From NCBI GenBank assembly GCA_007695095.1, contig REEL01000081.1, positions 1 to 39,955 on the forward strand: a stretch of 39,955 nt of DNA, in the 5' to 3' direction. The translations under genes and the position numbers were made by a program. The first letter of the stretch is position 1; each line of letters opens with the position of its first letter. Below, in pieces: positions 10,986-27,077 of the stretch. This DNA is from Chitinophagaceae bacterium (lineage in GTDB: Bacteria > Bacteroidota > Bacteroidia > Chitinophagales > REEL01). The notes beneath the pieces were generated by a model. That model saw only the letters and a program-made list of their open reading frames with translations. It had not been told where the DNA came from and did not search any database.

Positions 10986-11011
10986 TTTATTTAAAGTTAA
11001 CTTTAAATAAA
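10986..11011. repeat. Perfect 26-bp AT-rich palindrome centred on GTTAAC
   Basis: Half-site TTTATTTAAAGTT followed directly by its exact reverse complement; the symmetry breaks at 10985/11012. It lies 116 bp upstream of the methyltransferase start and about 230 bp upstream of the T9SS gene promoter, between divergent genes. It could be a protein-binding site or a hairpin. No T-run of terminator type follows on either strand. Confidence 0.75.
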
Positions 11012-24848: not shown

Positions 24849-24882
24849 GCAGTAGAGACGTTGCATGCAACGTCTCTACTGC
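24849..24882. repeat. Perfect 34-bp palindrome at the head of RAYT copy 1
   Basis: Left arm GCAGTAGAGACGTTGCA is followed immediately by its exact reverse complement (centre TGCA|TGCA between 24865 and 24866), and symmetry ends at 24848/24883. It has no T-run, so it is not a terminator. The same outer arm TAGAGACG occurs in the palindrome at 26312-26341. REP-like palindromes of this kind are known to travel with RAYT transposases. Confidence 0.85.
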
Positions 24883-24954
24883 AACACAATCCCACGCGTT
24901 GCCCGCGACATCGAATCCGGTAAAAATCAATTTGGTCTACAATCAAAAAATTTG

Positions 24955-25168
24955 GCATCCATTGTTCGTGGATTCAAATCGGCCGTAACCATTTAGACGA
25001 GAATTATTGAACCTGATTTCGCATGGCAATCCCGATTTCATGACCACATTATTCGCGATAAAACATCCTATTATCACATTGTAAAACACATAAAAAACAA
25101 TCCCGCTAATTGGGCAGAGGATAGATTTAACCTTTCTAATCAGAATAACAAACAAATAAAAAAATAGG
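24955..25168 (+). pseudogene. RAYT transposase C-terminal remnant, copy 1
   Basis: The plus-strand frame reads ASIVRGFKSAVTI, then a TAG stop, then TRIIEPDFAWQSRFHDHIIR, SYYHIVKHIKNNPANWAED and a stop. These are landmarks of the C-terminal half of REP-associated Y1 transposases (SIVRGFKSAVT, FAWQSRFHDHIIR, YIxxNPxNW). The internal stop, the missing N-terminal half with its HUH (PNHxH) motif, and His instead of Tyr in the HIKNNP motif make it inactive. The corresponding tract is better preserved in copy 2. Confidence 0.75.
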
Positions 25169-25306
25169 ATAGAAACTTTACTGCCTTTTGTTTTGAAGAA
25201 CGGTAAAAAGAAAACGGCAAGAATAGAAAAATTTATTCCGGATTTTTTTTGAATAACCCTAACTGTTTGTAATGCCCTCACTCGGACAAGATATAATATG
25301 TTGTAG

Positions 25307-25332
25307 GTGGTTGGTGGAATAACACCAACCAC
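25307..25332. repeat. Terminal hairpin of RAYT element copy 1
   Basis: Perfect 10-bp stem GTGGTTGGTG / CACCAACCAC with a GAATAA loop. The identical hairpin is found at the same place in copy 2 (26767-26792), close to the right boundary of the repeat. It may be the subterminal recognition hairpin of the element. That role is inferred. Confidence 0.7.
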
Positions 25333-25437
25333 GGCGGGAAAATGGTATATAAAACACCGGTCATTCCGGCAGATGTTGACCCCCTAATTTTTATATCAAT
25401 ACAACTCACCCCCTTCCATTATGGAGTTCTTTCTGCA

Positions 25438-25743
25438 TCAATAAATAAACGGATTTCTGCTTGTATGTCTTAACCTTAAAATGTAAATAAACTCAGTCTG
25501 TACTTTGTAAGAAATGCGATAACTGTAAATTTCATAAGCTTTGTAACTCCCATCATTATTTATTTTAAAACGGTCTATAGGATGTATATCAGGATAAAAA
25601 GCGAGTGCACGTGTAGAATCTAATATTGACTTAATTACTTTCTCAGCTTCGTTCATGTTATCCCCAGCAATAAATGTAAAAATTTCTTTGAGAGCTTCTT
25701 TAGCTTTTGTATCCCAAACAATTTTTAATCCTTTTTTTTCCAT
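25438..25743 (-). CDS. RelE/ParE-family type II toxin
   Basis: 101-residue toxin-like protein. The layout matches the ParE/RelE superfamily: KIVWDTKAKEALKEIFTFIA (beta strand then helix), a second helix MNEAEKVIKSILDSTRALAFYP, then DRFKINNDGSYKAYEIYSYRISYKV and IYILRLRHTSRNPFIY, with Arg and Tyr positions typical of this fold. RelE members cut mRNA on the ribosome and ParE members poison gyrase; the sequence does not show which applies here. Its start overlaps the antitoxin end by 19 bp, as in coupled TA operons. The pair sits between two direct RAYT copies, suggesting a mobile or accessory cassette. Confidence 0.88.
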   Translation of the reverse strand: MEKKGLKIVWDTKAKEALKEIFTFIAGDNMNEAEKVIKSILDSTRALAFYPDIHPIDRFKINNDGSYKAYEIYSYRISYKVQTEFIYILRLRHTSRNPFIY

Positions 25744-25940
25744 TTTTTTGCTTCTTCCTCTAATACATCTTGTGTAGTGAATTTACCGGAAGTGATGCGA
25801 TTTTCAGCTTCGTCAATTTCATTATTATAAGTATCAGATGCGTGTTTTGACAACAACTTTTTTACTTCAGCCAATAAGGTTTCATCATTGGTTTGCAACA
25901 GTTGCTGCATCAACTCTAATTTAATTGCTTTAACATCCAT
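25725..25940 (-). CDS. Antitoxin of the RelE/ParE-type pair
   Basis: 71-residue acidic protein (MDVKAIKLELMQQLLQTNDE ... SGKFTTQDVLEEEAKKW) of the kind found next to ParE/RelE toxins in Bacteroidota. The N-terminal helices may form the dimer and the C-terminal EEEAKKW helix may bind the toxin. No classical ribbon-helix-helix or AbrB motif is obvious. It is encoded first, overlapping the toxin gene by 19 bp. Neutralisation of the neighbour toxin is inferred from gene order and size. Confidence 0.8.
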   Translation of the reverse strand: MDVKAIKLELMQQLLQTNDETLLAEVKKLLSKHASDTYNNEIDEAENRITSGKFTTQDVLEEEAKKWKKKD

Positions 25941-26100: not shown

Positions 26101-26187
26101 TGATAAGGGGTAAAAAAATCATAGTGCAAAGAATTTTATGAATTCTAACCCCCTTTGTTCGTAGTTTCATCTCAAAAAAATGCAGCT

Positions 26188-26211
26188 GTCCGTAGTTTTT
26201 TTACTACGGAC
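26188..26211. repeat. 9-bp hairpin with T6 loop
   Basis: GTCCGTAGT (26188-26196), six T, then ACTACGGAC (26203-26211). It lies about 45 bp upstream of the transposase remnant of copy 2 and may belong to the same decayed element. A similar start GTTCGTAGTTT occurs at 26157-26167. Confidence 0.5.
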
Positions 26212-26255
26212 TTGGGTATTTAGCAACCCAATTTTTTCTGTCGTAGGATCCTCTA

Positions 26256-26615
26256 ATGCAATTATTGGAATTGAGGATAATGAATATAATAAACAACAAC
26301 GTGAATCACATTGTAGAGACGCAATGCATTGCGTCTCTACACAATCCAACGCGTTCCCCGCGTCATCGAAACCATCAAAAAACCAATTTGGTCCACAATC
26401 AAAAAAAAAAATTAGCATCCATTGTTCGTGGATTCAAATCGGCCGTAACAATACAGGCGAGAATTATTGAACCTGATTTCGCAAGGCAATCCCGATTTCA
26501 TGACCATATTATTCGCGATAAAATATCCTATTGTCGGTTTGCACAATACATAAAAAACAACCCCGCTAATTGGGCAGAGGATAGCTTTAACCCTTCTAAT
26601 CAAAACAACAAATAA
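26256..26615 (+). pseudogene. RAYT (Y1/IS200-like REP-associated) transposase remnant, copy 2
   Basis: An open frame of 119 codons with the C-terminal half of a RAYT: LASIVRGFKSAVTIQARIIE, DFARQSRFHDHIIRDK and QYIKNNPANWAEDSF, keeping the Tyr in the YIxxNP motif that is the likely nucleophile position in this family. The N-terminal half with the PNHxH (HUH) motif is absent; another frame just upstream reads AIIGIEDNEYNKQQ, which looks like its frameshifted end. The palindrome 26312-26341 is translated in frame as IVETQCIASLH. Poly-A at 26400-26410 is a likely frameshift site because the linker FGPQSKKK reads in a different frame. Not functional as it stands. Confidence 0.7.
26312..26341. repeat. 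Perfect 30-bp palindrome within RAYT copy 2
   Basis: Arm TGTAGAGACGCAATG followed directly by its reverse complement (centre between 26326 and 26327). It shares the outer TAGAGACG/CGTCTCTA with the 34-bp palindrome at 24849-24882, but the inner core differs (GCAATGCATTGC here, TTGCATGCAA there) while remaining fully self-complementary. Confidence 0.85.
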
Positions 26616-26766
26616 ATAAAAAAATAGGATAGAAACTTTACTGCCTTTTGTTTTGAAGAACGGTAAAAAGAAAACGGCAAAAAGGAAAATTTTATGCCGG
26701 ATTTTTTTTGAATAACCCTAACTGTTTGTAATGCCCTCACTATGAATAAGACATAATATGTTAAAG

Positions 26767-26792
26767 GTGGTTGGTGGAATAACACCAACCAC
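26767..26792. repeat. Terminal hairpin of RAYT element copy 2
   Basis: Identical to the hairpin at 25307-25332 (10-bp perfect stem, GAATAA loop) and at the same distance from the shared right boundary of the element. Confidence 0.7.
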
Positions 26793-27077
26793 GGCGGGAA
26801 AATAACAAGATTAAATTGCTTTGCTTTACTTCTCTAACACTCTCTCCATAATACCCTCACGGCACGCCCAAAAACGAAAACCACATTTAACAATCCACAA
26901 AACCCTGCATAGTACATAATCAATCTAAAATAAGTTGAGGCTGCATTAGCCTTATAATTGTCGCTAATCATAACACTAAAAATGTTTAAACCCTCAATAG
27001 CGATTAACAAAAGTTAAAATATGTAGTTATAAAGAATATAAAAATATAAATATGCTACATATTTGACAAAAAAAATA

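Follow-up and report, generated by a model that had tools for sequence, protein, structure and literature searches.

Why should a decayed transposase gene carry a perfect palindrome within its coding sequence? The question is posed by a contig of a Chitinophagaceae bacterium (GCA_007695095.1, REEL01000081.1), of which positions 1 to 39,955 were analyzed; this stretch of 39,955 nucleotides is referred to as the window. A preliminary description had pointed to a 30-bp palindrome inside a transposase remnant, and the palindrome is indeed perfect, with arms TGTAGAGACGCAATG and CATTGCGTCTCTACA (Table 1). Three perfect palindromes with arms of at least 11 occur in the window, where first-order Markov sequences would give 0.1; two of them lie inside remnants of REP-associated tyrosine transposases (RAYTs). 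Together with codon-shuffled linkers, these counts rule out a chance origin. The third palindrome (10986-11011, 26 bp, TTTATTTAAAGTTAACTTTAAATAAA) is AT-rich and unrelated to REPs. The reading that we favor, at a probability of about 0.8, is that the palindrome, a double-foot GTAG REP hairpin, is a component of the RAYT gene proper, so that the enzyme's own substrate would be kept in its gene and the encoded peptide would be a passenger.

Table 1. Positions in the window of the two RAYT remnants, their palindromes and associated features.
Feature	Position	Strand	Remarks
ORF	26256-26615	+	119 aa; holds the palindrome
Perfect palindrome	26312-26341	.	30 bp, 15+15 bp, without loop
28-bp unit GTAGAGACG-CAATGCATTG-CGTCTCTAC	26313-26340		double-foot GTAG REP, ATGCAT core
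RAYT (TnpA_REP group 4) C-terminal remnant (copy A)	26258-26612	+	homology begins just past the lost HuH motif (AIIGIEDNEYN)
Poly-A run	26401-26411	+	11 A; 6 A in sister copies; copy A +4 nt in all
Duplicated block, copy A	26313-26799	+	other member of the ~490-bp duplication
Second palindrome	24849-24882	.	perfect, 34 bp, GTAGAGACG-TTGCATGCAA-CGTCTCTAC, GCATGC type
Second RAYT remnant (copy B)	24883-25152	+	in-frame TAG; HIKNNP, catalytic Y changed to H; WQ present
Duplicated block, copy B	24852-25339	+	~490 bp: palindrome, RAYT C-terminus and 3' tail ending in a hairpin

The ORF that holds the palindrome is a dead remnant of a group-4 RAYT (TnpA_REP subclass 2.4). It matched the NCBIfam model for REP-associated tyrosine transposases (NF047646) at 5e-5 and 23.2 bits, below the curated cut-off of 80 bits; intact homologues scored 57.5 and 58.4 bits, also under that cut-off, and this model was the sole and best family to match. 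Because the Pfam model Y1_Tnp failed to pick up these divergent RAYTs, we used NCBIfam, phmmer to 4ER8 and Foldseek instead. The remnant is 57% identical to intact RAYTs, in which the HuH motif NH[IFV]H, the W motif WQ and the Y motif YIxNNP form invariant or near-invariant columns, and the earlier assignment to a RAYT therefore stands. Copy A retains the linker, the following helix (LASIVRGFKSAVT) and the Y motif (YIKNNP), and its palindrome is situated in the linker, between the end of the AIIGIEDNEYN strand and LASIVRGFKSAVT.

Copy B has a palindrome with a different core (GTAG...CTAC at 24852-24879) at the same relative position, and its homology to the other copies starts at that palindrome. 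The blocks around the two remnants are direct copies whose tails end in the hairpin GGTTGGTG-gaataa-CACCAACCACGGCGGGA; the exact block-end motif occurs three times in the host genome, twice in the window and once on contig C32, close to another REP. Because the HuH motif is lost and WQ is changed to RQ in copy A, and because copy B contains the TAG and HIKNNP, neither copy is a working enzyme. Between the two remnants lies a gene for a ParE-family toxin (Pfam PF05016, 3.5e-11; 25438-25940, minus strand) with a small upstream partner gene.

Upon a closer inspection of the reading frame, the translation of the palindrome had to be revised. The preliminary description read it as IVETQCIASLH; the RAYT frame gives RDAMHCVST. 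Before the poly-A run is reached, the RAYT frame coincides with a second ORF (26180-26470), which encodes NAIIGIEDNEYNKQQRESHC-RDAMHCVST-QSNAFPASSKPSKNQFGPQSK, and copy A reads NAIIGIEDNEYNKQQRESHC-RDAMHCVST-...-KNQFGPQSK. The intact protein L061 is in line with that frame (HAIIGIGENEYN...RRGAMHCAST...KNKFGPQSKN), and sister remnants on contigs C128 and C154 read RDAMHCVST and RDVACNVST in the frame that runs into FGPQSK. After the poly-A run, the frame of copy A is that of ORF 26256-26615, on to LASIVRGFKSAVT...YIKNNP. The slip in the run thus makes this ORF a composite, with the wrong frame over the palindrome and the RAYT frame in its C-terminal part, and on the evidence of the sister copies and of ORF 26180-26470 we rejected IVETQCIASLH as a RAYT segment. 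Nor is the element a multiple of three in length, as had been supposed: the shared GTAG...CTAC unit measures 28 bp, and the outer T/A pair is incidental.

Comparisons with other RAYTs were made at the level of the class and the phylum, the host's family being represented by the host genome only. A first survey covered the RAYT ORFs of 295 class genomes together with 80 named loci (from Bacteroidota, Cyanobacteria, Chloroflexota, Patescibacteria, Cloacimonadota and others), and a linker palindrome with an effective arm of at least 12 was present in 61 of 117 distinct RAYT ORFs, against a mean of 0.05 in codon-shuffled linkers. The query of this first class-wide search itself had palindrome-coded peptides, which biased the sample, and the survey was therefore redone with a palindrome-free RAYT, L083, in 395 genomes of the phylum. 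It yielded 77 ORFs, 35 of them with an arm of at least 12 (shuffled, 0.0) and 46 with an arm of at least 10 (shuffled, 0.05). Palindrome density was 3.05 per kb in the linker, 0.36 in the N-terminal part and 0.05 in the C-terminal domain; around the genes it was 0.34 and 0.54 per kb in the near flanks and 0.08-0.09 farther out. In the family as in the window, the REP lies in frame between the HuH and Y motifs, and both window units have the double foot, 5' GT[AG]G and 3' C[TC]AC. The suggestion that such a transposase carries its own REP-like element in the linker is hence borne out over ~190 RAYT ORFs, and is already published (PMC6006769).

The linkers of intact homologues are palindromic with many different cores, rather than being non-palindromic and of equal length throughout, which would have spoken against an insertion. 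Intact RAYTs without the segment also occur (L083, L106, L127, L190 and L271); ~40-50% of the scanned RAYT linkers have no detectable palindrome, and in the close relatives L187, L188 and L234 it is eroding through point changes. This absence and decay indicate that the hairpin is not strictly required. L053, L102, L105, L129 and L162 have a second in-frame site, at the N-terminal beta-hairpin, in its turn; in other RAYTs this turn is short. Both palindrome sites are low-confidence loops in an AlphaFold2 model of L105, with a pLDDT of ~45-54 in the linker and 71 in the N-terminal loop; the best match of this model among solved structures (Foldseek) was 4ER8, TnpA_REP with a REP hairpin (E 3.6e-6). 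Some linkers are expanded: that of L047 (G248) contains a very long palindrome, with an arm of 29 and one mismatch, amid tandem peptide repeats (GLVSPVGS, TGDKTIDTN), and those of L075, L058 and L050 likewise have tandem repeats around half-palindromes. In the RAYT L144 the linker is short and empty, and palindromes with the CATAATTATG core occupy the N-terminal site and the very C-terminal end of the ORF.

How did the hairpin come to be in the gene? In the preliminary description it was an insert that added codons, which is plausible; the nucleotide-exact pair of empty and filled sites was not found, the G274 family giving one close pair only (L057/L064, 93% DNA identity), with both members filled. 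On a neutral account of this kind, REPs spread by RAYTs would also land in the RAYT gene and be kept there since the linker tolerates additional codons, with no function in cis. Quentin et al. (2018) favor this by judging the effect of an inserted REP on the protein to be probably small (PMC6006769); the disordered linker of the L105 model, the enrichment of the gene flanks and the decay in relatives point the same way. We counted the pattern GTAGRGAC-N12-GTCYCTAC in 14 genomes with complete listings by hand tally. Of 74 pattern palindromes, 21 fell inside a RAYT ORF or remnant, another 6 no more than 250 bp away from one and 47 elsewhere, and one genome (G251) had 18 copies, mostly dispersed, as neutral insertion would have it. 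Against it, several genomes lack a dispersed pool from which an insertion could have come: in some the hairpin is nearly confined to the RAYT gene, and in three related ones (G204, G101 and G200) the sole pattern palindrome is inside the RAYT. Moreover, palindromes are 6-9 times as dense in the linker as in the non-coding near flanks, although coding DNA should be the less tolerant of the two. Twenty genomes with no RAYT match in the class search had two pattern sites, both imperfect; one of the twenty, G035, has more distant RAYTs according to a later survey. We regard neutral insertion as a serious contender that is nonetheless somewhat doubtful.

In the host genome, which measures 3.49 Mb in 186 contigs, GTAGAGACG-N10-CGTCTCTAC occurs 16 times, with cores TTGCATGCAA, CGATTAATCG, CGATAAATCG and CAATGCATTG. 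With the palindrome masked in the search, seven of the 16 were at the linker position of recognizable RAYT remnants. The window core CAATGCATTG is present twice genome-wide, both times within RAYT remnants. The one intact RAYT of this group in the host, C27, is 227 aa long; its linker contains a perfect palindrome of 28 bp (GTAGATACGCACGGCCGTGCGTATCTAC) and its N-terminal loop a near-perfect in-frame one with the same core, ACGGCCGT; this core was found nowhere else in the host genome, so here too the RAYT gene has the only copies found. Two CGATTAATCG palindromes on contig C100 (L016 and L017) lie in near-identical duplicated context (AAGCAACTAAATTCTACTGTTAATTTACATGTGC...) unrelated to RAYT, which suggests duplication of a larger REP-bearing segment.

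RAYTs and REPs are thought to co-evolve, and the cognate hairpin of a RAYT is usually guessed from neighboring repeats. Judged from sequence, core type tracks the RAYT protein tree. On a tree of the conserved domains with the linker left out, five core classes required 5 changes against 21.3 with shuffled labels; a larger tree of 196 rows required 10 against 33.7. Both trees are built on few columns (~135) and contain many weak forks. The exact 7-mer core gave 14 changes against 25.6, a label too fine for some groups, in which GCATGC sub-variants intermix; the central hexamer performs better. The ATGCAT class coincides with the FGPQSKN subtype, which includes the window remnants. Furthermore, at 12 of 17 loci the internal core equals a flanking core (within 400 bp), whereas shuffling gives 2.5.

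Sister copies in the host suggest that the content of the site can nevertheless change. The remnants C81-A (copy A of the window) and C154 have near-identical flanks up to GTAG and from ACAATCC on, and all ten core bases between them differ (CAATGCATTG versus TTGCATGCAA). Copy B and C154 have an extra TGCAAC/AAC to the right of the palindrome, like REPs elsewhere in the host genome, and of the four host remnants that fall in the ATGCAT clade, two have a GCATGC core. The simplest reading is that one REP was replaced by another at one place, after the copies had died; independent insertions at one site may also account for the difference. These same observations could mean that any REP active in the genome overwrites the site, and does so time and again, in which case the content of the site would report current RAYT activity and not descent. 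We consider this unlikely, given that core class rarely changes on the tree of intact RAYTs; cross-class overwriting is thus at most occasional, and was seen here in dead copies only.

As single-stranded DNA, the window palindrome has a predicted folding energy of -19.8 kcal/mol (z -6.7, DNA parameters). A coding-strand hairpin of this stability, with a core that matches the encoded protein, could also act in the mRNA, through pausing, message stability or binding of the RAYT to its own message. Such autoregulation appears improbable to us: the RAYT papers cited here describe no RNA binding by these proteins, the hairpin sits mid-gene and away from the ribosome binding site, and same-core copies flanking the gene on either side fit recognition of DNA better. 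A search for a structured RNA family gave no Rfam match.

What is kept at these sites is the DNA rather than the peptide. Of the GTAG-footed linker palindromes, 41 are read in frame 0 and 24 in frame 1; none uses the third frame, in which GTAG is a stop (TAG). In L105, one 28-mer occupies both sites and is read in a different frame at each. That the encoded peptide (VET..SL or RD..VST), which recurs in many proteins, is itself functional and the palindrome a by-product of codon use is highly implausible, since two frames of one DNA give unrelated peptides, once within one gene, and since cores, hence residues, vary widely across RAYT linkers with palindromy retained; the two-frame use rules out conservation at the peptide level. 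We therefore hold with high confidence both the identity of the palindrome and the view that the DNA is what is kept.

The favored reading, a cognate hairpin held within the gene, would work as follows. The hairpin that group-4 RAYTs carry in their coding sequence would be their own recognition hairpin; it lies in a disordered loop that separates the HuH strand from the helix after it, and some of the genes have another copy where the N-terminal beta-hairpin turns. Of the two frames without a stop, the one that fits is used to read it, the resulting 9-10 residues being passengers. When the strand becomes single, for example as the lagging strand, the palindrome would fold into a stem with a GTAG foot, a known type of TnpA_REP substrate, which the group-4 protein would presumably bind and cleave. 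Enzyme and cognate hairpin would so stay linked in one gene, which could seed or receive nearby REP copies, and the window preserves two dead, duplicated fragments of such a gene. Whether the gene gains from this in cis is a matter on which we lean slightly toward doubt. More tentatively still, the internal hairpin may be a permanent cis-acting copy of the substrate that co-evolves with the protein, rather than an insertion from a REP pool, and dispersed REP families may have been founded from it, so that REPs would originate in RAYT genes.

If group-4 RAYT genes do hold their cognate hairpins, the substrate of every such enzyme is spelled out in its gene, and the specificity of enzyme for hairpin becomes readable from sequence and directly testable over hundreds of pairs. 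Single-copy hairpins within RAYT genes would also offer a concrete hypothesis for the origin of REP families.

Rickettsia palindromic elements, to which the preliminary description had likened the palindrome, are ~100-150 bp long and spread over many unrelated genes. The likeness is loose. In both cases palindromic DNA is translated in frame and adds residues at protein surfaces; here, however, the unit is 28-30 bp and concentrated in one gene family, with seven of the 16 host copies in RAYT remnants and, in some genomes, none found elsewhere. Classical REPs are dispersed, high-copy and mostly extragenic, whereas the window core has two copies in 3.49 Mb, both in RAYT remnants. GTAG-tagged REPs in general are palindromes of 20-40 bp that are associated with RAYTs, and some are intragenic (Di Nocera et al., 2013, BMC Genomics 14:522, PMC3733652).

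E. coli TnpA_REP (PDB 4ER8) resembles the proteins described here in its fold (Foldseek), in the HuH motif with a single catalytic Y, and in a GTAG-footed hairpin substrate, predicted for group 4. It requires GTAG, loop bases matter for group-3 members, and cleavage of GTAG-footed hairpins by TnpA_REP is established for groups 2 and 3 (PMC8266576). E. coli REPs differ in lying outside the gene and in having a one-sided GTAG foot and a bulged stem.

The closest known system is TnpA_REP subclass 2.4 (RAYT group 4), for which Quentin et al. (2018, BMC Genomics 19:475, PMC6006769) described REPs in tnpA_REP genes, generally between HuH and Y, that leave the frame unbroken. The features given there recur here: NH[IFV]H, WQ and YIxNNP, an in-frame REP, double-foot GT[AG]G...C[TC]AC, occurrence in Bacteroidetes and Cyanobacteria, and a gene that is also flanked by REPs. 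The window copies differ from those genes in being dead fragments that have lost HuH. Our finding thus belongs to a described kind, and the general idea is largely known. In the main text of that paper we found no mention of tracking of core by clade, confinement to the gene, two-frame use or core exchange. Beyond that main text, and allowing that some of it may be in the supplements, the present analysis adds that core type tracks the protein tree, that internal and flanking cores match, that the hairpin is in some genomes confined to the gene, that it has a second, N-terminal site, that it is used in two frames and that its core appears to be exchanged between sister copies.
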